The translations under genes were made by a program, and so were the position numbers. This document shows, piece by piece, positions 5,211-64,000 of a DNA stretch of 64,000 nt. Origin of the DNA: Archivesica marissinica (lineage: Eukaryota > Mollusca > Bivalvia > Venerida > Vesicomyidae); NCBI GenBank assembly GCA_014843695.1, contig CM026390.1, positions 53,782,121 through 53,846,120 of the forward strand. Reading direction: 5' to 3'. Position 1 is the first letter of the stretch, and every line of letters begins with the position of its first letter. The notes below the pieces were generated by a model, which saw only the letters and a list, made by a program, of their open reading frames with translations, was not told where the DNA came from and ran no database searches.

Positions 5211-6994
5211 TTTCATCTGTTTCATTAATGTTGTCACATACTTCCATATACAACACCCAGTACTTACCCTTCAGCTGTTTCATTAATGTTGTCACATACT
5301 TCCATATACAACACCCAGTACTTACCCTTCATCTGTTTCATTAATGTTGTCACATACTTCCATATACAGTGCCCAGTACTTACCCTTCATCTGTTTCATT
5401 AATGTTGTCACATACTTCCATATACAATGCCCAGTACTTACCCTTCATCTGTTTCATTAATGTTGTCACATACTTCCATATACAATGCCCAGTACTTACC
5501 CTTCATCTGTTTCATTAATGTTGTCACATACTTCCATACACAATGTCCAGTACTTACCCTTCAGCTGTTTCATTAATGTTGTCACATACTTCCATATACA
5601 ACGCCCAGTACTTACCCTTCATCTGTTTCATTAATGTTGTCACATACTTCCATATACAATGTCCTGTACTTACCCTTCATCTGTTTCATTAATGTTGTCA
5701 CATACTTCCATACACAATGTCCAGTACTTACCCTTCATCTGTTTCATTAATGTTGTCACATACTTCCATATACAACGCCCAGTACTTACCCTTCATCTGT
5801 TTCATTAATGTTGTCACATACTTCCATATACAGTGCCAAGTACTTACCCTTCATCTGTTTCATTAATGTTGTCACATACTTCCATATACAACACCCAGTA
5901 CTTACCCTTCATCTGTTTCATTAATGTTGTCACATACTTCCATATACAGTGCCAAGTACTTACCCTTCATCTGTTTCATTAATGTTGTCACATACTTCCA
6001 TACACAATGTCCTGTACTTACCCTTCATCTGTTTCATTAATGTTGTCACATACTTCCATATACAGTGCCCAGTACTTACCCTTCATCTGTTTCATTAATG
6101 TTGTCACATACTTCCATATACAGTGCCCAGTACTTACCCTTCATCTGTTTCATTAATGTTGTCACATACTTCCATATACAACGCCCAGTACTTACCCTTC
6201 ATCTGTTTCATTAATGTTGTCACATACTTCCATATACAACGCCCAGTACTTACCCTTCATCTGTTTCATTAATGTTGTCACATACTTCCATATACAACGC
6301 CCAGTACTTACCCTTCATCTGTTTCATTAATGTTGTCACATACTTCCATACACAATGTCCTGTACTTACCCTTCATCTGTTTCATTAATGTTGTCACATA
6401 CTTCCATATACAACGCCCAGTACTTACCCTTCATCTGTTTCATTAATGTTGTCACATACTTCCTACACTGTCTGTACTTACCCTTCATCTGTTTCATTAA
6501 TGTTGTCACATACTTCCATATACAGCCCAGTACTTACCCTTCATCTGTTTCATTAATGTTGTCACATACTTCCATATACAACGCCCAGTACTTACCCTTC
6601 ATCTGTTTCATTAATGTTGTCACATACTTCCATATACAACGCCCAGTACTTACCCTTCATCTGTTTCATTAATGTTGTCACATACTTCCATATACAACGC
6701 CCAGTACTTACCCTTCATCTGTTTCATTAATGTTGTCACATACTTCCATACACAATGTCCTGTACTTACCCTTCATCTGTTTCATTAATGTTGTCACATA
6801 CTTCCATATACAGTGCCCAGTACTTACCCTTCATCTGTTTCATTAATGTTGTCACATACTTCCATATGCAGTGCCCAGTACTTACCCTTCATCTGTTTCA
6901 TTAATGTTGTCACATACTTCCATATACAACGCCCAGTACTTACCCTTCATCTGTTTCATTAATTTTGTCACATACTTCCATATACAACGCCCAG
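5211..6994 (-). repeat. 59-bp minisatellite made from TOM1-like exon 2 end and its splice donor
   Basis: About 30 copies of a 59-bp unit. Read on the minus strand, each copy contains the last part of TOM1-like exon 2, from TGGGCGTTGTATATGGAAG to ACAGATGAAGG, then the donor GTAAGTAC, then directly the next TGGGC. Units therefore encode [17 protein letters not shown] up to a consensus donor. The genuine exon, with its acceptor, is the rightmost copy (6944-7028); it reads CDK where the units read CDN. The leftmost unit (5211 on) has lost the donor. Some units near 6460-6530 are shortened. The junction shares ACTGGGCG with the exon, suggesting duplication at microhomology. Confidence 0.9.
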
Positions 6995-7028
6995 TTCTCT
7001 GATGGCTGTGTTCCATCTGTCGCTTTCT
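6944..7028 (-). CDS. TOM1L2: TOM1-like coding exon 2
   Basis: 85 nt, entered in phase 1 and left in phase 2. The acceptor is TTGTAG at 7029-7034. Its 3' 46 nt and donor are the source of the 59-bp array that follows in the intron. Reading past the donor gives an immediate stop (GGG TAA), so failure to splice would truncate the protein. Confidence 0.88.
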
Positions 7029-18785: not shown

Positions 18786-21700
18786 GTATGTCATTTACGG
18801 TGTTATTTCAGAGATGTAAACGTCCTCAGATTAGAGAAACCAGAGTTCACAAGCACACAAACACTAACCCAAACAGAACTGAGCACCACACAGTGCACAT
18901 TATATAATCCAAACAGAACTGAGCACCACACAGTGCACATTATATAATCCAAACAGAACTGAGCACCACACAGTCACAGTGTACATTATAAATCTCATAT
19001 AGAACTGAGCACCAACACACTTCACATTATATAATCCAAACAGAACTGAGCACCAACACAGTGCACATTATATAATCCAAACAGAACTGAGCATCACACA
19101 GTCACAGTGTACATTATAAATCTCATATAGAACTGAGCTCCAACACAGTTCACATTATATAACCCAAACAGAACTGAGCACCAACACAGTGTACATTATA
19201 TAATCCAAACAGAACTGAGCACCAACACAGTGTACATTATATATCTCATATAGAACTGAGCACCACACAGTCACAGTGTACATTATAAATCTCATATAGA
19301 ACTGAGCACCAACACAGTTCACATTATATAACCCAAACAGTACTGAGCACCAACACAGTGTAACATTATATATCTCATATAGAACTGAGCACCACACAGT
19401 GTACATTATATATCTCATATAGAACTGAGCACCAACACAGTGTACATTATATATCTCATATATAGAACTGAGCACCAACACAGTGTACATTATATATCTC
19501 ATATAGAACTGAGCACCAACACAGTGTACATTATATATCTCATATAGAACTGAGCACCACACAGTGTACATTATATATCTCATATAGAACTGAGTACCAC
19601 ACAGTGTACATTATATATCACATATAGAACTGAGTACCACACAGTGTACATTATATATCTCATATAGAACTGAGCACCACACAGTGTACATTATATATCT
19701 CATATAGAACTGAGCACCACACAGTGTACATTATATATCTCATATAGAACTGAGCACCACACAGTGTACATTATATATCTCATATAGAACTGAGCACCAC
19801 ACAGTGCACATTATATATCTCATATAGAACTGAGCACCACACTTACTGTCTGGAGCATGTCGAGCAAGTCAGCAACCATAACTATGTTTAGTTTAATCAT
19901 ATTTTATTGCATTCATTCTATATACATGTATACAATGTACAATACAAGACAAATGAACAAATTATATAAGTAAGCATAATATACGATTCGTGACATTGTT
20001 TGCACAAGAATTGTCAATATATGTTGAAGCAAATGGGTTGGGCCACAAGTTTTAACAACATTAGTTACAGCCCTCCCCACTATACTAGATTGTAACTAAC
20101 AAAATGAGTGAATACAAGATTTGTGCAAATAATTTAATTAATTTCATGAATAGTAAAAAATGGGATAATGAATGCTGAATCCTTTCTATTCAGAAAAACT
20201 ATGTGTCCATGGAGACCCCGAACCCTTGTCCCCGAACTCTTGTACTGTCTTGCCTTGTTCACTTGTTACACATGCCTTTTATTTGTGTTAACATTAATCA
20301 TTTATATCCAATCACTCACTTATATACTGTAATGGTGTAGATATTATGATATAATATGTTCTTATCCAATTACTAGAATCCTAGTTATATCTATATATAC
20401 CATTTTTATTTATATTTCCATATATTATTGTCATGTGTAAATGTTTAAAATTGCATCTGTAATTGTGAAGTGCAATAGAGTAATTTTTGCGCTATATAAA
20501 TGCTATGTATTTGTATGTATTTGTATTTATACAAATCACGTATTTATTTCAGACATCTTGGAAATTGACAATTTGTGGAGTTTTTCTTGTCTCACCAAGC
20601 TGCAGCTGGATAACAATATCATTGAAAAAATCAAGGGATTAGATGAACTGGTGAACCTTATATGGTTAGGTAGGATCCTTGAATACACAACTTGCCTTAG
20701 TCTGTGGTGACCATGAGTCCCCCAGGATTAGATGAACTGGTGAACCTTATATGGCTAGGTAGGATCCTTGAATACACAACTTGCCTTAGTCTGTGGTGAC
20801 CATGAATCCCCCAGGATTAGATGAACTGGTGAACCTTATATGGCTAGGTAGGATCCTTGAATACACAACTTGCCCTAGTCTGTGGTGACCATGAGTCCCC
20901 CATGATTAGATGAACTGGTGAACCTTATATGGCTAGGTAGGATCCTTGAATACACAACTTGCCCTAGTCTGTGGTGACCATGAATCCCCCAGGATTAGAT
21001 GAACTGGTGAACCTTATATGGCTAGGTAGGATCCTTGAATACACAACTTGCCCTAGTCTGTGGTGACCATGAGTCCCCCATGATTAGATGAACTGGTGAA
21101 CCTTATATAGCTAGGTAGGATCCTTGATTACACAACTTGTCCTAGTCTGTGGTGACCATGAATCCCCCAGGATTAGATGAACTGGTGAACCTTATATGGC
21201 TAGGTAGGATCCTTGAATACACAACTTGCCCTAGTCTGTGGTGACCATGAGTCCCCCATGATTAGATGAACTGGTGAACCGTATATGGCTAGGTAGGATC
21301 CTTGAATACACAACTTGCCCTAGTCTGTGGTGACCATGAGTCCCCCAGGATTAGATGAACTGGTGAACCGTATATGGCTAGGTAGGATCCTTGAATACAC
21401 AACTTGTCCTAGTCTGTGGTGACCATGAGTCCCCCAGGATTAGATGAACTGGTGAACCGTATATGGCTAGGTAGGATCCTTGAATACACAACTTGCCCTA
21501 GTCTGTGGTGGCCATGAGTCCCCCAGGATTAGATGAACTGGTGAACCGTTAATGGTCTGTGGTGACCATGACTGCAGATTTCAAACATGGATCTTCTATC
21601 ATTTGGAAAAGTGCATGATACTATTACGGGATTTTTTCAAAAACAACGCTCTATTTTAATAAATTTGTGTGAATTGTGCCCCTCTTTGCACACTTATCGT

Positions 21701-24700
21701 CTTCTATTTATTGACAAAAATATGTATATGTTCACCGAACTTGGTCAGAAAAATTATTGAGAAAAGTGGAAGCTATCCAACTATCTTGCGGTAGGTTGGT
21801 GGTTTTATTGGGGTGTACTCCTGCGCATGAAATACTGCTCAGAGGGGCACCCACTCATAATAGCTGTAAATTCGTCATATGATCTAAGCTGTTGGTGTGA
21901 ACATCAAAAACAAACAATATGTCCGTCCGTCTGTCCGCCTGTAAATTAGTTGGTTTATTTAGGTTGACTGATGCTTTGAGAGTACATGTAACCACTAACA
22001 CAGGTTTGACTGTTCCGCAGACATAAATTTTCATTGAGCAATAATTGCTATTTCACAAATACAGCAACAGTGGTCATGAATGTTAGTAGCAACAGTACAA
22101 TTGGTGTCTATTATTTAACTAATATTTCAGATTTATCTTTCAACAACATTGAGATGATTGAAGGTTTGGACAAACTGAAGAAGCTACAGGACTTGACCCT
22201 GTATAACAACCGCATCTCTTGCATAGAAAACATGGATCAACTCACCAACCTTCACGTCTTTTCCATTGGCAATAACAGACTCACAGACCTAGAAAATGTA
22301 TGTAGAAGTATGCATTCTGTCATGCAATATGCTGATTTGTTTGGTGAGTTGCAGACTTAAAATTTAATAATGTTGCATTAATCAACTAGGGCTTTCATGT
22401 GAAACTATGATTCCATTTTTTTTATATACAGTCAAACCTGTCTTAAGCAGCCAATGAAAAAGTAGGCAGTTTCTTACGGAGGTTGGTGCACCCAAGTACT
22501 GGTTAACCATTGGAGCCTGCCCAGGAAAGGTGTTAGGTAAACTGCCCACCGACGATATAGCCTAAAATGGTGCTGATAAAACCCGAAATATAACATATAA
22601 CTTAAGCAGCCAGCCAAGGGAATCACAGAAAGTGGATGCTTAGCACAGGTGGCTGCTTAATAGAGGTCAAATATATAATAAAACAGCCAATTGAGCATCT
22701 GAAAACTGGCTGCTTAATACAGGTTGGCTGCTTAATGGAGGTGACCACTAACACAGGTTTTACTGTAGATCAAAATTTACTGTTTTCCATAACTCATATG
22801 GTATGAAAATGACCTCATTGCATAAATTAATGTTTCCCATCTACCAGTATATCTATTATTCAGATGAGAACAATTGGGAAAAATGATAACTATATTTTCA
22901 GGTTGTGTATTTAAGAAGATTCAAGAAGTTGCGAACGCTGAATCTGAATGGGAATCCATTCTGTGAGCAGCCGGACTACAAGCAGTATGTGATAGCGTAT
23001 ATTTCATCTACAGACTTTCTTGACTACCGACTCATTGATGAACAATCTGTAAGTACACCAGGTGCTTGCAGGTGTGAGATATCTCAGTATATGATAGCGT
23101 ATATTTAATCTACAGACTTTGTTGACTACCGACGTGAGATATCTCAATATCTCTACACACTTCCTTGTGTTCATTGATGAACAGTCTGTAAGTACATCCA
23201 CTCATGATGGGTGAGTCTGTCTCCAAGGTCACTGTCACCTTAGATATCAAGAAGTCATAATAGCTTGTTCGCTTTAGGTGCGAAAGGCCCCGGGTTTGCG
23301 CCCAACTGTAGCCATTTCGATGGTGCCCTTAGCAAGGCATTTAAATTCCACATTGCCTATTCTTTCTCCTTCGTGGCTATGGATTCCATCAGGAATGAGG
23401 TCTCGATAGTGCTTAATATAAGTTGTAAAAACTTGCTTCGCAATCAAGCTAAGATAAATGTGTATAAACTAAAGATCAAGAATTATTTCAAAATTAGGTA
23501 TTTATATGTAATCCATATATTTTAAATCAATTGATTTGTTGTGGAATAATGCAGCACAGATATGTTCATCATCCTGAGACACCTCTCCACTTTGTGTGTT
23601 TACAGAGGGTAGCCGCCACAGAGAAGTACCACCTGTCTATTGAGGAGATGCTGCATAACGAGAGGCAGGCTGAGCTTAAAGAGGAGGAAGATGCCCAGAG
23701 AGAAGTGGAGGAAGGCACTCATAAGGTATGTATGTATGTTCCATTAATGTCAAACCCTTTGCAGGGACATAGACATGTTTTCCTGGGCAAGCTTAGCCGA
23801 CCTAAGTGGTTAACCAGTACTAAGCAATGTGTGTGAAGTGCCTTGCTGAATGACACTACATACGTGGCCTGACCGAGTATCGAACCCGGGACTGATCGAT
23901 TCCAAATCCAACGCTCTACCACTGGACCACGGATGCCACACATCTTTATGTATGTAATCTTTATCATTCAGTCATTGCATATACTTGGGAAGAGCCGTCT
24001 CTAATGTTGTAAGACCTTGTGGCTCGACCCATTTTTGCTTTCTTTACATAATATTATATTGTATGTAGATTCTGTGTCATAATAAAATAAAATATGATTA
24101 AACATTGCATATACAGACTTTGTATCACTCTTACCCTTGCAAAGTTTTTTACTATGAAGTTTTACGAATCAGTGTCACATGTACATTGCTGTAGGTCCAC
24201 CTCCGTGGTCGAGTGGTTACGGTCGCTGACTTGTATACCACTGTAACCTATCATCACTGATGGTCACGGGTCCGCTTCCGTGGTCGAGTGGTTAAGGTCG
24301 CTGACTTGTATACCACTGTAACCTATCATCACTGATGGTCATGGGTCCGCCTCCGTGGTCGAGTGGTTACGGTCGCTGACTTGTATACCACTGTAACCTA
24401 TCATCACTGATGGTCACGGGTCCGCCTCCGTGGTCGAGTGGTTAAGGTTGCTGACTTGTATACCACTGTAACCTATCACCACTGATGGTCACGGGTCCGC
24501 CTCCGTGGTCGAGTGGTTAAGGTCGCTGACTTGTATACCACTGTAACCTATCATCACTGATGGTCACGGGTCCGCCTACGTGGTCGAGTGGTTAAGGTCG
24601 CTGACTTGTATACCACTGTAACCTATCATCACTGATGGTCACGGGTCTGCCTCCGTGGTCGAGTGGTAAAGGTCGCTGACTTGTATACCACTTTAACCTA

Positions 24701-27700
24701 TCATCACTGATGGTCACGGGTCCGCCTCCGTGGTCGAGTGGTTAAGGTCGCTGACTTGTATACCACTGTAACCTATCATCACTGATGGTCACGGGTCCGC
24801 CTCCATGGTCGAGTAGTTAAGGTCGCTGACTTGTATACCACTGTAACCTATCATCACTGATGGTCATGGGTTCGATCCCCGCTCAAGCCGTGTCTCATTT
24901 ATATGAAAAAGTTGGCAGTTTCTTACGGAGGTTGGTGCATCCAAGTACTGGTTAACCGCTGGAGCCTACCCAGGAAAGGTGTTGTTAGGTAAACTGCCCG
25001 CCGGCGATATAGCCCGAAATGGTGCTGATGCAGGCGTAAAACCCGAACTATAACATATAGCATTGCTGTAGACATGCTTAGACAGCCTTAGATGGCCTAA
25101 TTGACAAGTGGAAGTCGTGATAGCGCAGTTGATGTGCGTTCGCTTCAATTGCGAAAGGTCCGGAGTTTGAGCCCTGCTGGAGCCGTTACGATTGTGCTCT
25201 TAGGCAAGGCATTTAAATTCCACCTCTTCTCTCTCCCTTGTGGCGATGGATTCCATCAGGAATGAGGTCTCGAGATTGATTAATATAAGTTGTAAGAACT
25301 TGTTTCGTAATCGAGCTTAAATAAATTAGTATAAACTAATTGACAAGAGCTGGCCAGGTATCACAGGTTTATTACTCTGTATCCCTCTTGTCTACTTTCT
25401 CGGGTAGATCTCAACAACCGAACATAGAACAAACAACCCATTTTCTTACAGCTAGATTCATAAGAAGTTGCACTTACTGTTACAATAGGTATTCCATTTT
25501 ATCATATAACTTGGTTGTATTCAGTTTCATACAGCCATCACATATTTTCTTATATGCACACATGTGTAATACAACCTGGACGATTTTGATTCTTTGAGAG
25601 AATAATCTTAATAATATGTAAATTAAGCTTTAAATAAACATATTTCTATTTGAATTGGTACATAGCATTAATGGCAAGACAAACAACGATTTAAAAGAAG
25701 TCTCGTAATTATAATGCTGTTTAAAACATAAATATAGTACTGCTTTGCTTAGTGACATCATGGCAATTTAGTGACATGACAATTTAGTGACATCATGACA
25801 ATTTAGTGACATGACAATTTAGTGACATCATGACAATTTAGTGACATCATGGCAATTTAGTGACATGACAATTTAGTGACATCATGACAATTTAGTGACA
25901 TCATGACAATTTAGTGACATCATGACAATTTAGTGACATCATGGCAATTTAGTGACATGACAATTTAGTGACATCAGGACAATTTAGTGACATGACAATT
26001 TAGTGACATCAGGACAATTTAGTGACATCGTGACAATTTAGTGACATCATGGCAATTTAGTGACATCATGACAATTTAGTGACATCATGGCAATTTAGTG
26101 ACATCATGGCAATTTAGTGACATCATGACAATTTAGTGACATCACAATTTGCTCTAACTTTTGGTGCCAAAATGAATGTAGCAATGTTATATACTTTGTG
26201 CAAAGATATGATTAAAACAAGCGCTATATGGTAATATGATTAAAAAAAGACCTTACTGTAGTCATTATTTCATACCATATTTTATGAAACAAGTTTTGGA
26301 ATTTTGCTTTTTTATACAAATTTAATTTAGCTCGATTGCGAAACAAGTTCTTACAACTTATATTAATCACTCTCGAGACCTCATTCCTGATGGAATCCAT
26401 CGCCACAAGGGAGAGAGAAGAGGCATGTGGAATTTAAATGCCTTGCTTAAGGGCACAATCGTAAAGGCTTCAGCGGGGCTCGAACTCCAGACCGTTTGCA
26501 CCTGAAGCGAACACACTACCACTGCACTATCACGACTGCCAAAAAAAACATTATTGACAATTCTGCATATGGACAACAGATGTCAAAACTCACGATATAA
26601 TCAAATTTGTATTAAAGAGACCACCAAAGGGAAAGGCAAAGGGTGGTCTCTAAGCAGGAATGGTCTCTTAAAATAACCTAATTTGTTCCTTAACAGACAG
26701 ATTGTAAAGTTATCATGGAATTTGTCATAGAATTAAATGGAAATCAACTGATTTTATAGTGCAGTGAGTATTTTATGATTGTCGGACAAATTGATTTACA
26801 TGTACTATAAACGGTGTGTTATTGTAGGAAGCTTATATAGATGGTTTGAATGGGCCTGCTTTGTTCGAGGGTATGTATGCTGACGATACAGAGGGCAAGA
26901 AAATGAAGGAGATGCCGGGAGTAGATGAACTTGTCATGTTATATCCTTTTCTGAATGAACACATTCCAGCAGTAACAACATACCATCTGTATAATTACAA
27001 CGGATGCAGATTGGCTGGACATAACACCATGCATTACTCAACAGGGCTCCATCTAGGCCCAACTATTAGACACAAAGCTTATGTAACATAATCTCTTACT
27101 AGGACAATGTATTTTGCTAGGCTTTGAGTAGAGACTTCAATCTTGATGGCATGGCCTTGCTCTGTTAATCCGAAAACTCGTGGAGTTGCACACAAGTGGA
27201 GTGTTACAGGAGAGTGATGCCATACATATATATAGATATACAAAGTCAAACCTCTCTTAAGCAGCCATCAAAGGGAATCATTGAAAGTGGCTGGTGCTTA
27301 GCACAGGTGGCTGCTTAATAGCAGTCAAATGTATAATTAAACTACATATTGGGAATCTGGAAAATGGTTGCTTAATACAGGCTGGCTGCTTAATGGAGTT
27401 GACCACTATCTCAACTTGACTGTACCCTTCAAATTGTAACAACAGAACAGTTTGAGAGTGTCATGTTATGCCCCAACACTTATTAAATTGTAACAAGAGT
27501 GCAGCATTTCAATACAAATCCGACAAGCACCTCAATACTGTACATAGTCGTATGCAAGTCCGCCTCCGTGTAACATAACATATAACATAGTCGTATGCAA
27601 GTCCGCCTCCGTGTAACATAACATATAACATAGTCGTATGCAAGTCCGCCTCCGTGTAACATAACATATAACATAGTCGTATGCAAGTCCGCCTCCGTGT

Positions 27701-30700: not shown

Positions 30701-33700
30701 TGAAACAAGCTTTATCACTCTCTTTGGTGAAGATTCTAGTCTATCCAATTTAGGATAGTTTCCATCTGGGTATGAACTACATTGGGCATGTTTAAAGTGT
30801 GTGGAGGCCGAATGCATTAACACGCTCAATGTAGTTCATACCCTGATGGAAAATATTAACCCACAATTCATTACTTATCTTTACATTCATTATTCTTTTC
30901 AATGAGACAAAGAAACAAATATCATACTTTTCATTTAAAATGTATTTAGGCGAGATGTGTGACTTTGTGCTGGACCTGGTAATTAGACCATCCTTGGAAC
31001 AGCATAGACTGTAATACATGCTTCTAATATCACAGAAATGCTGCCCAACACTGTGAATACCCGTAACTTTGTGTACTCATGTCGGCTGCATATCATTAGT
31101 GAGGAAACTCATGCGAAAATAGTTACAAACAGGGCATATACATTCATCGAAGGCAATGCAATAGTGATGTAAATATTTTGGCAAGCACCACACGTATCGA
31201 CTAACATACTTCCCATTCCAAGGAGATAACCCGGGTTGCATTGAGTGTGAAGCGAGTATGCTAATCAGACAGCCAGTACCCGGTAAAGTAACATATAATG
31301 TGCAATCGTGTTGATTTCAGTGTGGCTTAAATATTTCAGGTGTTTGCCGAGTTGAATCATATTACAGACAATAGTATGTTAGACCAGAAAGTAAAGGAAT
31401 ACAACAAGGAAGTCACTGATCTCTGGGATAAACTCATGGCTCTGGAGCTACAACTCGTTGATCAGTTTGAGGTAAGAAGTTGTATGTAGATACAGGATTG
31501 GGGGAGTGTGTTAGTGGTCACCTCCATTAAGCAGCCAATCTGTATTAAGCAGCCAGTTTCCAGATTCCCAATATGTTGTATTATACATTTGACCTCTATT
31601 AAATGGCCACCTGTGCTAAGCAGCCATTTTCTGTGATTCACTTGGCTGGCTGCTTAAGACAGGTTTGACTGTATACGAAAGACGTCACCAAGACATGAGA
31701 TACAGTGATCTTGAACTTGAAATTGGCAAAATAGTAGTATGGTTTTCAGATTAATTTTACATTGTCCATGAACTCTCGACCATGATTATTTCTAAGACCT
31801 GCCAGTTAGTATTACTTTAGTTAGTTTAAACATATTTTATTTCAAGAATCAAACATTCGACATAGTGTAACATACAAAGTATTTAGGTGGATTGGATTGA
31901 AAGTTAAAAACTTATTAAAAATCCTCTCCAAAAATTATTACTTTAGTTCACTACCCCCAACAAACAAGTTACTGCTGTTTTACCAGGTTTAGATTAGCAG
32001 CTACATGACAGGGAGCTACCAACAAGTCATTACCAAATTGATCAAATTACTTTAGAAAGGAACTCGGAAGAAAATTATATTTCTTGCATATCACATGTAA
32101 CTAAAACTTGAGCATATAATCTTTATTTTCACCTTAAAGCAACACTACATCAGTGAAAACACAAATTACTACAGAATGTATTTTCTTATTATATGGTATA
32201 ATATTTTTCCAAATATTTGCCTCAAATTCTGAGTATTTCAACTAATAAACAAACGTCGTATACACGGTTTGTTGACATAGCAAAATAACGTAAACATCCA
32301 TGCGTAATACAACTAGTGTATCCTGATTTATGTATGGTACAGATTTACCGTTATATCTCACATCTATTTATTTGTAGACTATTCTTAGTTAAATTGTCTC
32401 TAAATAACATTATCTTGTGTTTAGTATTGACTCCGATGACAAACAAACGTCAATTCAGGAGCATGGATGACCGTTATATGAAATCATACTTTCAATCCAC
32501 AAAAACACTGTTTATTGATTCAATATTAGTGTTCGAATGTATTCAGAAGAATTTGTAGTAGCAATGCATTTATACGTGAACAAATACATTTTATTTGCTT
32601 TTTTGCGATGTAATGTCGCTTTAAAGGTCTTATACAAATGTCAACGACTCGTCTATTCTCTCTAAACATCAAATTGTTCCATATATTTCAAGGATATCAT
32701 CAAAGACTTTGAGAGGAATCTTCAAGACATGGGATCAACATTCATTGAGAACGTGCAGGGCTATCTGTCACAGTGTCGTGACCTTGAGAATACTCACCAT
32801 GAACGTATGCTCGAAATTGCCATCATTACACTTGAGAAGTTCGTGAAAAATGAACTTGATGATGAAATTTCTGAAGATCTCAGAAATGTAAGTCTTGTGT
32901 GTGTTTCTGAATAATATGTACCCGGTACTAGCATCAAACACGTCTTTACCTAGTTATCACTCTGTATTGTGAATGTGAGGGTTTAATTTTAAACTTTCAT
33001 ATTTTCGTGAACCATCATAGAGTTTATTCATAGGTCATATTTTCGTGAATCTCCCATAGAGTTTATTCATAGGTCATATTTTTGTGAAACTCCATAGAGT
33101 TCATTCAGAGGTCATATTTTCATGAACCTCCATAGAGTTCATTCATAGGTCATAGTTTAGCATAGGTGTCATATTTTCGTGAATCTCTAGAGTTTATCAT
33201 ATGTCATATTTTCGTGAACCTCCATAGAGTTTATTCATTGGTCATATTTTTGTGAATCTCTAGAGTTTATCATAGGTCATATTTTTGTGAACCTCCATAG
33301 AGTTTATTCATTGGTCGTATTTTCATGAACCTCCATAGAGTTTATCATAGGTCATATTTTTGTGAAACTCCATAGAGTTCATTCAGACGTCATATTTCGT
33401 GAACCTCCATAGAGTTTATTCATAGGTCATATTTTCATGAACCTCCATAGAGTTCATTCATAGGTCATATTTTCATGAACCTCCATAGAGTTTATTCATT
33501 AGTCATATTTTCGTGAATCTCTAGAGTTTATCGTAGGTCATATTTTCGTGAATCTCTATTATATGTTTCCTACATAAAGCTCTTTCTTTTTCACAGTTAT
33601 ATTTTCATGAGTTTATCATAAGTCATATTTTTGTGAAACTCCATAGAGTTTAATCGTGGGTCATATTTTCACAAATCTCCATAGAGTTTATTCGTGGGTC

Positions 33701-34198
33701 ATATTTTCACAAAACTCCATAGAGTTTATTCATGGGTCATATTTTCACGAACCTCCATAGAGTTTATTCATGGGTCATATTTTCACGAATCTCCATAGAG
33801 TTTATTCGTGGGTCATATTTTCACAAATCTCCATAGAGTTTATCATAAGTGTCATATTTTCGTGAATCTCTAGATTTTATCATAGGTCATATTTGTGTGA
33901 ATCTGTATTATATATTTCCTACATAAAGCTCTTTTCTTTTTCACAGTTATTTGTAGATAAAGACACCATCATCAATGCTGTGACATCGTCACATGATGTT
34001 CATTTGCTAAAAATAGACAACAAAGAAGACGACATCATCACACGCATAAATAACTGGATGAAAAATACCATCGAGAACATTCATGAAGAACAGGAAGTGC
34101 AACGCAATCGGAAACGCGTGTCCGAAATTAACACTATGACCGACCACATACAGGAAGAAATAGACAACTTGGAAGTTCTCCAGGGAGCCGGATACTGA
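18626..34198 (+). CDS. DRC3: Dynein regulatory complex subunit 3 (DRC3/LRRC48), complete
   Basis: Ten coding exons join to 1,578 nt, 525 residues, close to the human protein (about 523). Exons: 18626-18785, 20553-20669, 22131-22297, 22902-23048, 23606-23725, 26828-26940, 29101-29275, 31340-31471, 32693-32887, 33947-34198. All joins keep frame. Residues about 50-150 form SDS22-type leucine-rich repeats (LQLDNNIIEKIKGLDEL, LDLSFNNIEMIEGLDKL, LTLYNNRISCIENMDQL). An LRR cap follows (YLRRFKKLRTLNLNGNPF, LDYRLIDEQS). The C-terminal half is helical and charged, as in coiled coils, including FIENVQGYLSQCRDLEN and LFVDKDTIINAVTSSHD, which are strongly conserved in this family. DRC3 belongs to the nexin-dynein regulatory complex of motile cilia. 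The ATG at 18626 starts the conserved N-terminus; an acceptor at 18610-18611 implies a 5' non-coding exon. All introns are GT-AG except the sixth, which appears AT-AC. Confidence 0.95.
18850..19845. repeat. 40-bp minisatellite in DRC3 intron 1
   Basis: About 25 units of AACTGAGCACCACACAGTGT, ACATTATATATCTCATATAG. Left units vary (CACACAGTCACAGTG, AATCCAAACAG); right units are uniform. It contains no exon-like sequence. Confidence 0.93.
19886..20095 (-). repeat. Dispersed element with AATAAAATATGATTAAAC end
   Basis: The minus strand ends in GCAATAAAATATGATTAAAC and includes CTAATGTTGTTAAAACTTGT followed by GGCCCAACCCATTTGC. The same 3' sequence occurs on plus at 23985-24105 and a fragment begins at 31822 (minus). 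It is probably a retroelement 3' end. Confidence 0.5.
20180..20535 (+). mobile_element. Probable LINE 3' end with short tandem tail
   Basis: The sequence ends ATTTTTGCGCTATATAAATG followed by CTATGTATTTGTATGTATTTG repeats. A GCGCTATATAAA terminus with short tail repeats is typical of L2/CR1-type LINEs and their SINEs. It finishes about 20 bp before the exon 2 acceptor, so the polypyrimidine side of that acceptor borders the element. Confidence 0.5.
20553..20669 (+). CDS. DRC3: DRC3 exon 2 (LRR)
   Basis: 117 nt, phase 1 to phase 1. It encodes ILEIDNLWSFSCLTKLQL, DNNIIEKIKGLDEL and VNLIWL. The acceptor is TTTATTTCAG and the donor is GTAGGA at 20670. Its last 33 nt and donor seed the 89-bp array that follows. 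Confidence 0.93.
20637..21560 (+). repeat. 89-bp minisatellite made from DRC3 exon 2 end and its splice donor
   Basis: Units begin (GATTAGATGAACTGG) at 20637, 20726, 20815, 20904, 20993, 21082, 21171, 21260, 21349, 21438 and 21527, an exact 89-bp period. The first is the real exon end. Each unit carries the 33 nt coding GLDELVNLIWL plus a base, the donor TAG/GTAGGATC, and 56 nt of intron ending TGAGTCCCCCAG or TGAATCCCCCAG, or in three units CCCCCATG. The final unit is cut off before the donor. Ten donors are therefore present. Confidence 0.95.
21561..22130. other. DRC3 intron 2 remainder
   Basis: Mostly unique sequence. At about 21990-22020 the words CCACTAACACAGGTTTGACT match the end of the TACAGTCAAACCTGT MITE family, so a MITE fragment is likely. 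Confidence 0.4.
22131..22297 (+). CDS. DRC3: DRC3 exon 3 (LRRs)
   Basis: 167 nt, enters in phase 1 (completing Asp of LDLSFNN) and leaves in phase 0 at ENLTN-type sequence DLEN. The acceptor is AATATTTCAG and the donor is GTATGT. Confidence 0.93.
22428..22767 (+). mobile_element. TACAGTCAAACCTGT MITE with nested SINE
   Basis: The ends are ACAGTCAAACCTGTCTTAAG and, at the right, AACACAGGTTTTACTGTA, an inverted repeat. The internal words GCAGCC and CTTAA repeat many times. A SINE B body (22455-22608) interrupts it after CAGCCAATG; the MITE resumes with CTTAAGCAGCCAGCCAAGGG. Confidence 0.75.
22455..22608 (+). mobile_element. SINE family B body, 5' truncated
   Basis: It matches 24905-25062: GGCAGTTTCTTACGGAGGTT, CCAAGTACTGGTTAACC, GGAGCCTGCCCAGGAAAGGT, CGACGATATAGCC and ACCCGAAATATAACATATA. 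The tRNA-like head is missing. It is inserted into the MITE, so it is the younger of the two. Confidence 0.7.
22902..23048 (+). CDS. DRC3: DRC3 exon 4 (LRR cap)
   Basis: 147 nt, phase 0 at both ends. It encodes VVYLRRFKKLRTLNLNGNPF and ends at FLDYRLIDEQS. The acceptor is TATTTTCAG and the donor is GTAAGTAC. Confidence 0.93.
23085..23198 (+). pseudogene. Partial duplicate of DRC3 exon 4 end with donor
   Basis: TATATGATAGCGTATATTTA, TCTACAGACTTTGTTGACTA and CCGAC copy the exon. About 37 bp of foreign sequence follows, then TTCATTGATGAACAGTCTGT and AAGTACATCC, restoring the exon end and donor (GT at 23188). A TAA replaces the TCA codon, so it could not be used as a coding exon in the same frame. 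Confidence 0.85.
23262..23480 (+). mobile_element. tRNA-derived SINE family C, copy 1
   Basis: It contains TAGCTTGTTCGCTTTAGGTG, CGAAAGGCCCCGGGTTTGCG, AGGCATTTAAATTCCAC, GATTCCATCAGGAATGAGGT and the tail AATATAAGTTGTAAAAACTT followed by GCTTCGCAATCAAGCTAAGATAAA. The head is diverged; complete copies are at 25110 and 26300. Confidence 0.75.
23606..23725 (+). CDS. DRC3: DRC3 exon 5
   Basis: 120 nt, phase 0 at both ends. It encodes RVAATEKYHLSIEEMLHNER and a highly acidic helix ending REVEEGTHK. The acceptor is TGTTTACAG. The donor GTATGTATGTATG runs straight into the tail of a SINE. Confidence 0.92.
23726..23942 (-). mobile_element. tRNA-derived SINE family A, copy 3, at exon 5 donor
   Basis: It starts at the first intronic base of intron 5 with (GTAT)n and TTCCATTAATGTCAAACCC, and ends with the tRNA-like head (minus strand GTGGTCCAGTGGTAGAGCGT). 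It is oriented opposite to DRC3. The donor's +3 to +6 bases (ATGT) are indistinguishable from the SINE tail. Confidence 0.85.
23970..24105 (+). repeat. Dispersed element with AATAAAATATGATTAAAC end, plus copy
   Basis: The CTAATGTTGTAAGACCTTGT and GGCTCGACCCATTTTTGC segment and the terminal AATAAAATATGATTAAAC match the minus-strand copy at 19886-20095, with an internal deletion. Confidence 0.5.
24201..24875 (+). repeat. 75-bp tandem array of a SINE tRNA-like head
   Basis: Nine units begin (CTCCGTGGTCGAGTGG or a variant) at 24201, 24276, 24351, 24426, 24501, 24576, 24651, 24726 and 24801, an exact 75-bp period. Each carries the A-box-like TGGTCGAGTGGTTAAGG. Only the last unit continues into the B-box GGGTTCGATCCCC and the SINE body. 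Confidence 0.95.
24801..25062 (+). mobile_element. SINE family B, full copy
   Basis: The tRNA Ser/Leu-like head is followed by CAAGCCGTGTCTCATTTATA, TTGGCAGTTTCTTACGGAGG, CCAAGTACTGGTTAACCGCT, GGAGCCTACCCAGGAAAGG and AACCCGAACTATAACATATA. The head is the final unit of the 75-bp array. Confidence 0.85.
25110..25340 (+). mobile_element. tRNA-derived SINE family C, copy 2
   Basis: The head is GTCGTGATAGCGCAGTTGAT (A-box) and GGTCCGGAGTTTGAGCCC (B-box). The body is CTCTTAGGCAAGGCATTTAA and GATTCCATCAGGAATGAGGT. The tail is TTAATATAAGTTGTAAGAAC and TTGTTTCGTAATCGAGCTTA. The tail is shared with family D. Confidence 0.85.
25750..26146. repeat. 19-bp minisatellite in DRC3 intron 5
   Basis: Units of GACATCATGACAATTTAGT (19 bp) alternate with units lacking CATCAT or carrying GG for GA. 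About 22 copies. Confidence 0.92.
26300..26545 (-). mobile_element. tRNA-derived SINE family C, copy 3
   Basis: Reverse orientation of the 25110 copy. It runs from the tail TTTAGCTCGATTGCGAAACA, through ATTCCTGATGGAATCCATCG and TGCCTTGCTTAAGGGCACAA, to the head GAACTCCAGACCGTTTGCAC and CACTGCACTATCACGAC. Confidence 0.88.
26828..26940 (+). CDS. DRC3: DRC3 exon 6, ends at AT-AC intron
   Basis: 113 nt, phase 0 to phase 2. It encodes EAYIDGLNGPALFEGMYADD, then TEGKKMKEMPGVDELVM and two bases of Leu. The acceptor is TTATTGTAG. There is no GT donor at the homologous position; the exon is followed at once by ATATCCTTTT, the U12 AT-AC donor consensus. Reading on gives residues that no longer match the family. 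Confidence 0.9.
27239..27424 (+). mobile_element. TACAGTCAAACCTGT MITE
   Basis: Ends AAAGTCAAACCTCTCTTAAG and CTATCTCAACTTGACTGTA with repeated GCAGCC/GGCTGCTTAA inside; same family as 22428, 28580, 31510, 60957 and 61143. Confidence 0.75.
27541..27725. repeat. 43-bp minisatellite in the AT-AC intron
   Basis: About four units of GTCGTATGCAAGTCCGCCTC, CGTGTAACATAACATATAAC and ATA. The last is shortened. Confidence 0.9.
27843..27902. repeat. Near-perfect palindrome
   Basis: The left arm 27843-27870 (TTTGGCCTATGGTCAT...TAATGT) pairs with the right arm 27873-27902 with one mismatch and a 2-nt bulge; the loop is two bases. It lies within the AT-AC intron. Confidence 0.85.
28580..28736 (+). mobile_element. 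TACAGTCAAACCTGT MITE, diverged
   Basis: Ends CTACAGTCAAACCTATGTTA and GACAGATTTGTCTGTATAGT with GCAGCCA and GGCTGGCTGCTTAA inside. Confidence 0.7.
29101..29275 (+). CDS. DRC3: DRC3 exon 7
   Basis: 175 nt. Its first base completes the Leu codon from exon 6. It encodes FREKFVNICKQIFDYGLQEN and ends NFMNMKKQ at donor GTAAGT. The phase at the end is 0. Confidence 0.92.
29747..29941 (-). other. Protein-like fragment of unknown origin
   Basis: A 64-codon minus-strand frame within DRC3 intron 7 reads CITASSGHGHFDELRVIDVL, TRKVVDTVQWLDCQVIVPHG and so on. The composition looks protein-like, and a possible GTAATT donor follows WLDCQ. I do not recognise the family. It may be a mobile-element remnant or chance. 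Confidence 0.2.
29953..30178 (-). mobile_element. tRNA-derived SINE family D, full copy
   Basis: Plus-strand order is tail AAGCTTTATTTATTTTACAA, body GTGGTCATTCATGTGGGAGG and CCGGAGTACCCGGAGAAAAG, then GTACCATCTCACATACTTCC, and the head at the right whose minus strand reads GGCTGTCCAATTAGCGCGCT (A-box region) and CCCGGGTTCGATCCTCGGAC (B-box). Confidence 0.85.
30181..30612. repeat. 33-bp minisatellite in DRC3 intron 7
   Basis: About 13 units of TGTGATCAAGCCATGTTAGT, TGTATGTACATCA. TTGTATG and GGTATG units alternate. The 11-codon period opens frames on both strands (MLVVCTSCDQA repeats on plus). Confidence 0.93.
30759..30852. repeat. Inverted repeat with 26-bp arms
   Basis: Left arm 30759-30784 (TTTCCATCTGGGTATGAAC...) and right arm 30827-30852 pair with one mismatch around a 42-nt spacer. 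It lies in DRC3 intron 7. Confidence 0.85.
31196..31280 (-). mobile_element. SINE family D head fragment
   Basis: CTAACATACTTCCCATTCCA, GGAGATAACCCGGGTTGCAT and GTATGCTAATCAGACAGCC match the head region of family D. Confidence 0.6.
31340..31471 (+). CDS. DRC3: DRC3 exon 8
   Basis: 132 nt, phase 0 at both ends. It encodes VFAELNHITDNSMLDQKVKE and ends LMALELQLVDQFE. The acceptor is AATATTTCAG and the donor is GTAAGAAG. Confidence 0.93.
31510..31673 (-). mobile_element. TACAGTCAAACCTGT MITE
   Basis: GTTAGTGGTCACCTCCATTA, repeated AAGCAGCCA and the end AAGACAGGTTTGACTGTA; inverse orientation to the 22428 copy. Confidence 0.75.
31680..32692. other. DRC3 intron 8 remainder, nothing firm
   Basis: AT-rich. 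A GTTTAAACATATTTTATTT fragment near 31825 matches the dispersed element at 19886. No other feature is recognised. Confidence 0.4.
32693..32887 (+). CDS. DRC3: DRC3 exon 9
   Basis: 195 nt, phase 0 at both ends. It encodes DIIKDFERNLQDMGSTFIEN, then VQGYLSQCRDLENTHHERML and a helix ending DEISEDLRN. The acceptor is TATTTCAAG and the donor is GTAAGT. Confidence 0.94.
32985..33905. repeat. About 37-bp minisatellite in DRC3 intron 9
   Basis: Units of CATATTTTCGTGAACCTCCA, TAGAGTTTATTCATAGGT with variants (TCACAAA, shortened TCTCTAGAGTTTATCAT). About 24 units. It is interrupted at 33556-33600 by a copy of the exon 10 acceptor region. Confidence 0.92.
33556..33600 (+). repeat. Duplicate of the DRC3 exon 10 acceptor region
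   Basis: TCTATTATATGTTTCCTACA, TAAAGCTCTTTCTTTTTCAC, AGTTAT nearly matches 33904-33950, the polypyrimidine tract and AG of exon 10. It is a strong-looking decoy 3' splice site 349 bp upstream of the real one. After AG the sequence turns into minisatellite. Confidence 0.85.
33947..34198 (+). CDS. DRC3: DRC3 exon 10, terminal
   Basis: 83 codons and TGA at 34196-34198. It encodes LFVDKDTIINAVTSSHDVHL, LKIDNKEDDIITRINNWMKN, then a basic stretch (RNRKRVSEIN) and a C-terminal helix ending LEVLQGAGY. The acceptor is CTTTTTCACAG at 33946. Confidence 0.94.
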   Translation, partial: LFVDKDTIINAVTSSHDVHLLKIDNKEDDIITRINNWMKNTIENIHEEQEVQRNRKRVSEINTMTDHIQEEIDNLEVLQGAGY

Positions 34199-59286: not shown

Positions 59287-59495
59287 TGACGTCCGTGGTC
59301 CAGTGGTAGAGCGTCAGATTTGGAATCGAACGGTCCCGGGTTTGATACTCGGTCAAACCACGTATGTAGTGTCATTGAGCAAGGCACCTCACACACATTG
59401 CTTAGTACTGGTTAACCACTTAGGTCGGCTAAGCCTGCCCAGGAAAACATGTCTAGGTCCCCACAAGGGGTTTGACATTAATGGAGCATACATAC
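59287..59495 (+). mobile_element. tRNA-derived SINE family A, copy 4
   Basis: Head GTGACGTCCGTGGTCCAGTG with GTCCCGGGTTTGATACTC; body TTGAGCAAGGCACCTCACAC; tail GGAGCATACATACATACATA. It lies just beyond the ATPAF2 3' end. Confidence 0.87.
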
Positions 59496-59576
59496 ATACA
59501 TATACCGGTACATTTATATTGCAACTCGGATAGCTCCTAACTACTAAATCAACATTCGCTTGAAGCTTTATAAAAA

Positions 59577-59582
59577 TTTATT
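59577..59582 (-). terminator. ATPAF2 poly(A) signal candidate
   Basis: AATAAA on the minus strand begins 17 nt after the stop codon, predicting a very short 3' UTR. Confidence 0.65.
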
Positions 59583-59598
59583 TTTCTAAAAGTATAAA

Positions 59599-59736
59599 TT
59601 AAGCGAACATGTGTTTTTTGCTAGCCACTGTAGTTTCATTGGACCAGTGTACAAACAATGCAGCTGCTGATAGTCTACTTCTCAGCTCTAGAATATCCAA
59701 ATCATGGTACCATTCTACGTTGCCCCATGTCTCTAT
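59599..59736 (-). CDS. ATPAF2: ATPAF2 terminal exon
   Basis: 45 codons and TAA (59599-59601). The acceptor is ATATGTTTTCAG. It begins IETWGNVEWYHDLDILELRS. Entry phase 0. Confidence 0.92.
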   Translation of the reverse strand: METWGNVEWYHDLDILELRSRLSAAALFVHWSNETTVASKKHMFA

Positions 59737-62700
59737 CTGAAAACATATAATAGAGAGCATACTGTAGGCAAAATGAGCAGATAACAAACAGGGTTCATTC
59801 TATGTCAGAATTTTTGGGAGAAGTGAGAAAGGGCGTGATTGCGTCCTTAAATGGCGTTATTTAATAAATTTCAACAAAATATTGTTAAAATGCACAGTAT
59901 GATCATTAAATACAACATTATAATAGAAGGAGTGCTTTATAATGGACAAGTGTTTCTTACTGGCCAGTACAACCATTAAATACAATATTATAATAGAAGG
60001 AGTGCTTTATAATGGGCCAGTGTATCTTACTGGACAACATTACATACAACATTATAATAGAAGGAGTGCTTTATAATGGGCCAGTGTATCTTACTGGACA
60101 CCATTACATACAACATTATAATAGAAGGAGTGCTTTATAATGGGCCAGTGTATCTTACTGGACACCATTACATACAACATTATAATAGAAGGAGTGCTTT
60201 ATAATGGGCCAGTGTATCTTACTGGACACCATTACATACAACATTATAATAGAAGGAGTGCTTTATAATGGGCCAGTGTATCTTACTGGACACCATTACA
60301 TACAACATTATAATAGAAGGAGTGCTTTATAATGGGCCAGTGTATCTTACTGGACACCATTACATACAACATTATAATAGAAGGAGTGCTTTATAATGGC
60401 CCAGTGTATCTTACTGGGCAACATTAAATACAACATTTGAATAGAAGGAGTGCTTTATAATGGCCCAGTGTATCTAACTGGACAACATTTTGTATGAAAA
60501 TTGTAAAATAAAATATTATATAAACAAAATTTTTAGGGAGAGGTGGGATCCCCAGAGGGCGAAGTCCAGGTCCCTAGTGCAACTAGGGTGTTCATCTGTA
60601 CCCAAGACAATGCCTGTAGAGACTCCTGGGGGTCTTCCTTCGCCCCTTAAATTTAAATTTTCAGAAGGGCAGTTAATCTGCCACTACTAGTGTGTTCATC
60701 TGTACCCGAGACAATGCCTGTAGAGATTCCTGGGGTCTTCATTCACCTATACAGTACCTGTAAACTGTAATATACCGGTATTTGTACCCACTAATACATA
60801 CTTGAAAGTCTTGTTCCACTCTGGAAAGTTGAACACATCTCTCTACGGTGATATACTTGTCCATCAAGGCCAGCACCAATACTAGAGACTTAACTGCTTC
60901 AACTGCATAGATGTACCCTGAACATATGATCATAATTATAGATTTAGACATACATGTACAGTGAAACCTGTGTTAGTGGTCACCTCCATTAAGCAGCCAA
61001 CCTGTATTAAGCAGCAACTTTCCAGATTCCCAATATGATGTTTCATCATACATTTGTCCTCTATTAAGCATCCACCTGTGCTAAGCAGCCACATTCTGTG
61101 ATTCCCTTGGCTGGTTGCTTAAGACAGGTTTGACTGTAGTGGTACAGTGAAACCTGTGTTAGTTAAGCAGCCAACCTGTATTAAGCAGCCATTTTCCAGA
61201 TTCCCAATATGTTGTTTTATTATACATTTAACCTCTATTAAGCATCCACCTGTGCTAAGCAGCCACTTTCTGTGATTCCCTTGGCTGGTTGCTTAAGACA
61301 GGTTTGACTGTAATGATAACCTGCTACTAAATCATTCTTGAATTCGCTCAGTGGTTTGTCAACAGTTAGTATAAACAAATCTAGCTAAATAGTACCAGAG
61401 TACCAAGAAAGTACGGTGGTGTAGTCCATGTTCACTTGGCATAATAGGAGCCCCAAAGGTTAAATCCAGCTTCTGACGCCAATTATCGACTTCAATGTAC
61501 TATACAGTCAGTCCCACCTACCCATTGGAACCTCGTTTATTAGCTCATATTATAAGTGCACGTACATTTATTCAAAGTTATACCATCATAATATCAAGAT
61601 AACGTTATGTTTAAACTTTATTTATTTTACAACGATTGCGAAACAAGTTCTAACAACTTATATTAATCACTCTCGTTGGTGCAGATGAAAGTGTAAATGT
61701 GGTCATTCGTGTGGGAGGAAACCGGAGTACCCGGAGAAAACCCACCTGTACGATCTGGCGACCACCGTACCATCTCACATACATCCCGGTCCGAAGATCG
61801 AACCCGGGTTGCATTGCTGCGCTAATAACATTATGTAGGGAGGGGGAAACACTATTTTATTTTTCCGATTTATTTGGCCTAAAGGCCTATCAGTATCAGT
61901 AGCATCACTGCGAGTTTCTCCATACACCACAATACAATTTCTCCAAGAAACGCGTTTTGCATTATGGCCTATGGGAAAAATAAAAAGGTTGCCCTCCTAA
62001 TTTGTTCTAATACTGTACTAGCCTTACCAAAGAGTGCCCAGTCACTATGTGACTCCATGTGTCGTGTTAATGTGTGGATTGTTTCTGGAGGAAGGTCTGG
62101 ACTGCATACAATACTGTGAGTAACAGGAACCTCTATCTCATATCTGTAATACATGACAGTGTAACGTACAATACCTTCGAGAAATAAATACCTGTTTATA
62201 TAATAAATTATGGCATCTGTAAGTGTTCGATTGTTTCCCTTACATCAGAGTGACATGGATTGTTTCCCTTACATCATAGAGTGACATGGATTGTTTCCCT
62301 TACATCATATAGTGACATGGATTGTTTCCCGTACATCATATTGTGACATAGGTTGTTTCCCTTACATCATATACTGACATGGGGTGTTTCCCTTACATCA
62401 TAGTGACATGGGTTGTTTCCTTTGCATTATAAAAAAATAGTATAGTGGCATAGATTATTTCCCTTGCATCATATAGTGGCATGGATTGTTTCCCTTATAT
62501 CATATAGTGACATGGATTGTTTCCCTTACATCAAAGAGTGACATGGATTGTTTCTCTTACATCATGTAGTGATATGGGTTGTTTCCCTTACATAATATAG
62601 TGACATGGGTTGTTTCCCTTACGTCATAAAAATATAGTGGTATGGATTGTTTCCCTTACATTATACGGTGACATGACTTGTTTCCCTAACATCATATAGT

Positions 62701-64000
62701 GGCATGGATTGTTTCCCTTACATCATATAGTGCCATGGATTGTTTCCCTTACATCATATAGTGGCATGGATTGTTTCCCTTACATCATATAGTGACATGG
62801 ATTGTTTCCCTTACATCATATAGGGACATGGATTATTTCCCTTACATCATATAGGGACATGGATTATTTCAATTACATCATATAGTGGCATGTATTATTC
62901 CCCTCACATCTTACAGTATGGATTGTTTCCCTTACATCATATAGTGGCATGGGTTGTCTCCCTGTCAACATATACCGACATGTATATCATCAGATTTCAA
63001 TATCAGATCACATTCACAAGTCAACTTGACTTCATATTGATAATTTCTATACACTGTATAATGTGGTCACACTCCCCATGGAGAGAGAGAGATGGAGTGA
63101 GAGAGGGATAGATACACATCGTTTCTATCCACTGTACAATGGGGTCCCACTCCCCAGGGGGAGGAAGCCAGAGAGGGGGTACATACCTTGCTTCTATCCA
63201 CTGTACAATGAGGTCCCACTCCCCAGGGAGATATAGAGGGGGAGGGAGCCAGAGAGGGGGGCACATACCTTGCTTCTATCCACTGTACAATGGGGTCCCA
63301 CTCCCCAGGAAGATATAGAGGGGGAGGGAGCCAGAGAGGGGGGCACATACCTTGCTTCTATCCACTCTACAATGGGGTCCCACTCCCCAGGGAGAGATAG
63401 AAGGGGGAAGCTAGAGAGGAAGGCACATACCTTGCTTCTATCCACTGTACAATGGGGTCCCACTCCCCAGGGAGACATAGAGGGGGGAGCCAGAGAGGGA
63501 GGTACATACCTAGCTTCAATCCACTGTACAATGTGGTCCCACTCCCCAGGGAGACATAGAGGGGGGAGCCAGAGAGGGAGGTACATACCTAGCTTCAATC
63601 CACTGTACAATGGGGTCCCACTCCCCAGGGAGAGATAGGGGGAGGGAGCCAGAGAGGGAGGCACATACCTTGCTTCTATCCACTGTACAATGGGGTCCCA
63701 CTCCCCAGGGAGACATAGAAGGGGAGAGCTAGAGAGGGAGGTACATACCTAGCTTCTATCCACTGTACAATGGGGTCCCACTCCCCAGGGAGACATAGAG
63801 GGGGAGGGAGGCACATACCTTGCTTCTATCCACTGTACAATGGGGTCCCACTCCCCAGGGAGACATAGAGGGGGAGGGAGGCACATACCTTGCTTCTATC
63901 CACTGTACAATGGGGTCACACTCCCCAGGGAGAGATAGAGGGGAGGGAGGCACATACCTTGCTTCTATCCACTGTACAATGGGGTCCCACTCCCAGGGAA
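59599..64000 (-). CDS. ATPAF2: ATP synthase F1 assembly factor 2 (ATPAF2/ATP12), C-terminal part
   Basis: Minus-strand exons 62028-62143, 60802-60917 and 59599-59736 join in frame to YEIEVPVTHSIVCSPDLPPE, TIHTLTRHMESHSDWALFGY, IYAVEAVKSLVLVLALMDKY, ITVERCVQLSRVEQDFQIET, WGNVEWYHDLDILELRSRLS and AAALFVHWSNETTVASKKH, followed by MFA and a stop. The order of LKSxVLxLxLxD-, LSRxEQ-, WGNxEWxHD- and ELRxR-type motifs matches the ATP12 family C-terminus. ATPAF2 is a mitochondrial matrix chaperone that binds the F1 alpha subunit during ATP synthase assembly. The exon before 62143 should encode EWDPIVQWIEAR; that sequence appears only inside an exon-derived array at 63046-64000, and the true exon and N-terminus probably lie right of the window. 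It is convergent with DRC3. Confidence 0.92.
59905..60490. repeat. 64-bp minisatellite in last ATPAF2 intron
   Basis: About nine units of TTACATACAACATTATAATA, GAAGGAGTGCTTTATAATGG, GCCAGTGTATCTTACTGGAC, ACCA. The first interval is 70 bp; later ones are 64. Confidence 0.93.
60585..60740. repeat. Two-copy direct repeat
   Basis: GTGTTCATCTGTACCCAAGA, CAATGCCTGTAGAGACTCCT occurs at about 60589 and, with small changes, at about 60690. It is near the donor side of the ATPAF2 exon at 60802 but carries no exon sequence. Confidence 0.7.
60802..60917 (-). CDS. ATPAF2: ATPAF2 penultimate exon
   Basis: 116 nt. Acceptor ATGTTCAG, two bases completing Gly, then YIYAVEAVKSLVLVLALMDK to EQDFQ; donor GTATGT. 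Exit phase 0. Confidence 0.92.
60957..61138 (-). mobile_element. TACAGTCAAACCTGT MITE
   Basis: TACAGTGAAACCTGTGTTAG to AAGACAGGTTTGACTGTA, with repeated AAGCAGCCA. It sits almost end to end with the next copy. Confidence 0.8.
61143..61312 (-). mobile_element. TACAGTCAAACCTGT MITE, tandem neighbour
   Basis: Same ends as the 60957 copy, shorter by deletion of GGTCACCTCC after GTTAG; about 95 percent alike by eye, so probably a tandem duplication. Confidence 0.8.
61608..61827 (-). mobile_element. tRNA-derived SINE family D, nearly full copy
   Basis: TTTAAACTTTATTTATTTTA, ACAACTTATATTAATCACTC, GGAGTACCCGGAGAAAACCC and AAGATCGAACCCGGGTTGCA. The head is truncated after TTGCTGCGCTAAT. Confidence 0.85.
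62028..62143 (-). CDS. ATPAF2: ATPAF2 antepenultimate exon
   Basis: 116 nt. Acceptor TATTACAG; the first base completes Arg. It encodes YEIEVPVTHSIVCSPDLPPE to HSDWALF; donor GTAAGG. Exit phase 1. Confidence 0.92.
62215..62965. repeat. 31-bp minisatellite in ATPAF2 intron
   Basis: About 24 units of TGGATTGTTTCCCTTACATC, ATATAGTGACA, with GTGGCA and short AAAAATATAGTGG variants. Confidence 0.93.
63046..64000 (-). repeat. 70-82-bp minisatellite made from an ATPAF2 exon end and its splice donor
   Basis: At least 12 units (TATCC word at 63126, 63195, 63277, 63359, 63439, 63518 and so on about every 70-82 bp to the edge). On the minus strand each carries a C/T-rich tract, then GGGGAGTGGGACCCCATTGT, ACAGTGGATAGAAGCAAG and the donor GTATGTGCC or GTATGTACC. 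The coding sense is GEWDPIVQWIEAR, which in phase joins the Y of the exon at 62143. The two leftmost units (63046-63140) have lost the donor. The true exon is likely beyond 64000. Confidence 0.88.

Follow-up and report, generated by a model that had tools for sequence, protein, structure and literature searches.

Three neighboring genes of this clam carry arrays in which the end of an exon and its splice site have been copied into the adjoining intron, and among exons sampled elsewhere in the genome such arrays meet splice sites as often as random placement predicts. We put at about 75% the probability that these are minisatellites of the type called "mirages" in amphioxus, with an ordinary birth in which the first unit straddled a splice site by chance, blind to the exon.

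Results

Exon-end copies in three neighboring genes

The window, meaning the whole 64,000-nucleotide stretch analyzed here (G000:C5:53782121-53846120), belongs to a genome of 1.537 Gb. TRF returned 43 rows in the window, which were merged by hand to roughly 19 arrays, so the setting is extremely minisatellite-rich. One 27-bp minisatellite of about 774 copies occupies 21 kb between two of the genes, DRC3 and ATPAF2 (36612-57470; TRF), and the flank past the ATPAF2 array holds a 23-bp array about 14 kb long (L041:9492 to L043:3595). Another array, at 24194-24871, has a 75-bp unit that we take to be similar to the head of a tRNA-derived SINE; a tRNA-derived origin was suspected, but ARAGORN found no tRNA gene in the window.

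The gene names given in the first-pass annotation proved correct. DRC3 matches PDB DRC3 with an E value of 8e-58 and ATPAF2 matches the Pfam ATP12 family (PF07542, E 1.7e-12), while the TOM1-like gene matches PDB TOM1 (E 1e-7) and the Pfam VHS domain slightly above the cut-off. The annotation had also described five places where exon ends and their splice sites are copied, and all five were confirmed (Table 1). As repeats, the five are far beyond chance. Their anatomy places the copies on the intron side and mostly in tandem, as had been described.

Table 1. Source exons, their copies, and splice-site arrays at sampled exons. Positions are those of the window unless a locus is given; a slash marks the exon boundary.
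Feature	Position	Strand	Unit	Basis
TOM1-like exon 2, source exon, start of VHS domain	6944..7028	-		boundaries by eye; PDB, Pfam
TOM1-like array, exon-2 end + GTAAGTAC, intron side	5212..6995	-	58 bp	TRF, direct reading
DRC3 exon 2, donor TAG/GTAGGA	20553..20669	+		boundaries by eye; PDB match
DRC3 exon-2 array, ten donors	20636..21555	+	89 bp	TRF, direct reading
DRC3 exon 4, donor TCT/GTAAGT	22902..23048	+		direct reading; PDB match
DRC3 exon 4 end, single interrupted copy, second GTAAGT at 23188	~23088..23199	+		direct reading
DRC3 exon 10, ends in stop, acceptor CACAG/TTATTT	33947..34198	+
DRC3 exon 10 acceptor region, single copy within 38-bp minisatellite	~33555..33600	+
ATPAF2 array, exon end + GTATGTGC, runs on to L041:955	63045..64000	-	~70-80 bp	TRF, direct reading
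ATPAF2 genuine exon, outside window	L041:918-998 = G000:C5:53847038-53847118	-
Donor-crossing array	L015		42 bp
Donor-crossing array	L033		76 bp
Donor-crossing array	L050		37 bp
Donor-crossing array	L054		49 bp
Donor-crossing array	L060		64 bp
Donor-crossing array	L119		26 bp
Donor-crossing array	L120		39 bp
Acceptor-crossing array	L047		107 bp
Acceptor-crossing array	L055		64 bp

The TOM1-like array had been described as about 30 copies of a 59-bp unit. The copy number stands, with 30 complete copies (30.9 by TRF), but the TRF unit is 58 bp. By direct reading, each unit consists of 50 bp of exon followed by GTAAGTAC, and GTAAGT is kept in all 30 complete copies. When the genome was searched with a 181-bp query made up of the exon end and first unit, in a search that passes over very common words, the 16 matches listed all fell within this array.

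DRC3 is affected at three exons. In the exon 2 array, TRF and direct reading bear out both the unit length and the ten donors, each unit consisting of 34 bp of exon and 55 bp of intron. When the first donor is used, the alignment to PDB DRC3 is gapless across the exon 2/3 junction; inclusion of one extra unit would shift the frame. The partial copy of the exon 4 end is present, as is the one copy of the exon 10 acceptor, which comprises the pyrimidine tract, CACAG and about 4 exon bases.

The exon end repeated in the ATPAF2 array, with TRF periods of 70–80 bp, also held up: the genuine exon lies 918–998 bases past the window end, at the upstream end of the array where it was expected, and its donor is within the first unit.

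Splice-site arrays at sampled exons

Exons elsewhere in the genome were picked by protein family (chaperonin, dynein and myosin), blind to repeats. PF00118 gave 57 matches and PF12774 gave 99, and the best 30 of each supplied 60 loci with 1.5 kb on each side. The 96 remaining rows and the matches to PF00063, at least 74 with 65 of 265 candidates scored, supplied 151 further exon ends after 5 of the 96 and 14 of the 74 rows had been left out as array copies or duplicated-gene copies. Sixty of the 151 were taken in random order as 300-base stretches (probes). Donors were called in 118 of the 120 exons; a few of the 118, such as L031, may lack a true donor.

We counted a tandem array as a donor crossing when it took in 5 or more exon bases. 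TRF covered only the 60 loci, and the two arrays among the 60 probes (L119 and L120) were found by self-alignment and by eye; since probes reach only about 240 bases downstream, long-unit arrays could go undetected there. Seven of the 118 donors are crossed by an array, as are 2 of the 60 acceptors, which were counted in the 60 loci only (Table 1). Arrays of this anatomy thus recur in unrelated genes.

Several candidates were left out of the donor count. The L038 unit contains only about 2 exon bases; this 31-bp array of about 25 copies (L038:1697-2483) begins at the donor itself and repeats CAG/GTAGA. The arrays at L075, L111, L129 and L134 were judged to begin in the intron, and L088 was also left out. 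L128 has a single non-tandem copy of an exon end without a donor, and L017/L018, one duplicated gene and hence one event, likewise has a single non-tandem copy lacking the donor. On the acceptor side, the L058 and L072 arrays end short of the splice site. The L031 repeat is part of the coding sequence of a gene without introns; its 27-bp period (L031:2302-2384) yields repeated peptide units in a BBS10-like protein. The best relative of this chaperonin-like gene is BBS10 of the clam Mercenaria, which is 57% identical over 56% of the query; next come proteins of Mactra (39%) and Mya (41%), and two of the five proteins matched are unnamed. These relatives place the host among the heterodont bivalves.

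The family searches brought up other repeats within genes. At G000:C8:10271974-10292161, the TCP1 exon matches for positions 115-177 and for 172-227 are both present in two copies with equal scores, separated by about 10 and 14 kb, which suggests a segmental duplication within the gene. Two myosin-head matches at G000:C5:100289375-100289707 both align to one stretch of 31 residues; they lie 240 bp from each other in a single open frame of 1155 residues. Several myosin rows lie in open frames of about 650–1430 residues, perhaps owing to stop-free arrays adjoining exons.

Array frequency at sampled exon ends matches random placement

If the start of an array lies within one unit's length upstream of a donor and the array continues into the intron, the exon sequence stays as it was, so under blind placement the expected number of crossings follows from array density and unit length. 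We calculated the expectation per donor by summing flanking unit lengths, after subtracting 9 bases to allow for the minimum overlap, and dividing by the array-free bases. The 54 non-overlapping loci among the 60 contain 112 array starts, with 106,919 of 155,412 flank bases array-free; about 31% of sampled flanking sequence is tandem array. The resulting null rate is 0.049 per donor (bootstrap 0.037–0.063) and 0.051 per acceptor. Against these rates, 5.8 donor crossings were expected and 7 observed, about one donor in 17, and 3.0 acceptor crossings were expected and 2 observed, making 9 crossings against 8.8 over 178 splice sites. Across ten donor arrays, the fraction of the unit taken from the exon shows no departure from a uniform distribution (KS p 0.39). 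Within the power of nine events, the sample shows neither attraction of arrays to exon ends nor avoidance of them. The window itself has three donor arrays in about a dozen identified exons, compared with about 0.6 expected, and was picked because of them.

A special link of the arrays to exon ends is therefore not supported: counted over sampled exons rather than the whole genome, overlap of arrays with exon ends is no higher than chance. The suggestion in the first-pass annotation that DNA prone to tandem duplication behaves in this way wherever selection permits looks right.

The product of array density and unit length replaced three earlier controls. One was a self-alignment count in which 13 array edges fell within the final 50 bp of 117 exons, compared with 5.0 in the control, or about 7 after our own correction for array-covered control sequence, so that an excess of edges near donors of about two-fold is possible. 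This count takes in non-tandem copies, a duplicated pair of genes and one or more donors thought to be miscalled (L070), and its hand-set donors of L111 and L120 are off by one base. In another, 12,000 random pseudo-exons matched in length showed overlaps of 7.6% at right ends and 6.7% at left ends, compared with 4/60 and 2/60 for real exons, and 22% of pseudo-exons were wholly covered compared with none of the real ones. It was dropped because edges may sit deep inside a pseudo-exon, which is impossible in coding exons; its 28-base rule also missed L050. The third control, an edge frequency of 9.6% and 9.9%, was compared with 8/118 donors (10 flags minus the miscalled donors of L129 and L134, with L017/L018 among the 8) and 2/60 acceptors. 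At face value it indicates a deficit (10/178 against 17.3, p 0.035), but it is too high because broken matches inside arrays count as edges.

Variation at copied splice sites

Retention of copied donors was assayed in 11 arrays, namely the three of the window together with L015, L033, L038, L050, L054, L060, L119 and L120. Terminal or broken rows were dropped, usually two per array, with none for L060 and five for ATPAF2 (22 of 27 rows used). GT is kept in 168 of the 169 donor copies used. In L119, two copies carry GC in place of GT; one of them was counted and the other left out as a terminal row. Among columns +1 to +5, 3 of 55 are variable against 10.1 expected from circular shifts (p 0.010). 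Depending on the set of arrays, p is 0.005–0.007 for seven arrays, 0.011–0.014 when L050, L119 and L120 are added and 0.007–0.010 with L038 as well; it rises to 0.085 when the ATPAF2 array is removed and to 0.19 when all three window arrays are. Other column windows, with p values uncorrected for the several windows tried, gave 0.054–0.064 (+1 and +2), 0.041–0.049 (+1 to +6) and, for −3 to +6, 0.047 by columns and 0.25 by frequency.

As a control, 52 arrays taken as exon-free contain 23 donor-like sites, with 28 variable columns against 27.8 expected. Three of the 23 sites proved to belong to the L050 exon array, present in overlapping loci, and without them the comparison is 28 against 26.6. 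Exon arrays differ from control sites with a Fisher p of 0.0096 (10 arrays). In contrast to the donor copies, the acceptor array of a dynein gene (L055:897-1523) reads AT instead of AG in 3 of 6 displayed intron copies. The low variation of copied donor columns is no more than suggestive and owes much to a single array.

Discussion

We favor a simple course of events for these arrays. A tandem duplication would begin with its first unit lying across a splice site, its placement blind to the exon. The real exon would then form the first unit on the donor side, or the last on the acceptor side, and stay unchanged, while further copies would come to sit in the intron as surplus splice sites and multiply by the usual unequal exchange or slippage. 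Because donor copies are equal or nearly equal in sequence, donor strength cannot discriminate among them, and the choice presumably depends on closeness to the exon. The first donor presumably remains in use, since the acceptor and body of the exon adjoin it, and the copies would therefore cost little. The gapless reading of DRC3 exons 2 and 3 with the first donor is consistent with this; the reduced variability of donor columns relative to others in the 11 arrays is not what pure neutrality predicts.

That reduced variability is what would be expected if the copied donors were kept for a function, for example as U1-binding rows near the intron start that guard long introns from premature polyadenylation, or in the tuning of splicing. 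The near-complete retention of GT, the absence of a deficit at control donor-like sites and the difference between exon arrays and those sites all point in this direction. However, significance is lost without the ATPAF2 array or without the window arrays, p is 0.041–0.25, uncorrected, in the other column windows tried, and three of the control sites were themselves an exon array. The GC copies in L119, the loss of AG from half of the displayed L055 copies and a rate of occurrence that is itself neutral also speak against a function, and we regard it as quite unlikely. We are more doubtful still that, in a lineage where minisatellites keep supplying them, tandem rows of copied 5' splice sites are held intact by selection and work in RNA as U1-binding rows just inside introns.

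Something at exon ends, such as R-loops or breaks at splice sites, might instead start tandem duplication and so produce real enrichment at boundaries. The raised edge density near donors in one analysis fits such an origin, but the array count equals the random expectation and the exon share of the unit, which shows no departure from uniform, reveals no preferred breakpoint relative to the splice site, making this explanation unlikely. Finally, tandem arrays are difficult to assemble and might be artefacts; yet the same anatomy appears at many independent loci, variant repeats are interspersed, and a genuine ATPAF2 exon lies where its array predicts. An assembly error thus appears highly improbable, and chance birth of minisatellites across splice sites is the reading that we carry forward.

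If duplications land anywhere, a minisatellite-rich genome will have a splice-site array at about 5% of its donors, which provides a quantitative null. Exons bearing arrays are also natural experiments. In the TOM1-like gene, 30 copies offer identical donor 9-mers at fixed spacing to one acceptor; with donor strength constant, RNA could reveal how position affects the choice of 5' splice site. Additionally, the arrays may supply raw material from which alternative exon ends or new introns could arise, and they may be a trap for gene prediction.

The first-pass annotation knew of no described class of such arrays, a view that is unsupported because tandem duplications of exon–intron boundaries have been published from amphioxus as mirages. 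According to the excerpts available of those reports (PMC3087553, PMC3902484), mirages occur in Adh3, TnC, the globins Gb6 and Gb9, and PGBD5; regular splicing is undisturbed and mRNAs are normal, while copy number varies among haplotypes and can be somatically unstable. The class is thus already known, and three of its features are borne out in the clam arrays. As in those excerpts, a minisatellite-like tandem unit spans the exon–intron boundary, both 5' and 3' boundaries are affected (here ten donor arrays and the acceptor arrays L047 and L055), and many but not all copies keep AG or GT. The differences from the amphioxus cases are a bivalve mollusc as host, arrays of up to about 30 copies and a frequency set against chance in an exon sample. 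Common descent with the mirages of amphioxus is not expected because each array derives from its own exon.

Within the literature searched, which comprised open-licence papers, we found no boundary-spanning arrays in any mollusc. The nearest case is a 27-bp minisatellite in intron 3 of an abalone TSSK1-like gene, where the accessible text mentions no boundary. What is new within that literature is the host phylum, the measured frequency and the sufficiency of blind placement as an explanation; a phenomenon reported there only from amphioxus is extended to a mollusc.

Two further systems invite comparison, each through the accessible part of its report. Human internal tandem repeats at exon–intron boundaries in segmental duplications (PMC2812944) are similar in that minisatellites have expanded over exon boundaries; in those primate paralogs transcripts are reportedly altered and novel introns formed, whereas in the clam the exon is unchanged and the copies are intronic. 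Intron gain by tandem genomic duplication (PMC4974935; Rogers' model as cited in PMC3087553) likewise involves a duplication that includes a splice site, but here, instead of a new intron being formed, an existing intron has acquired surplus splice sites.
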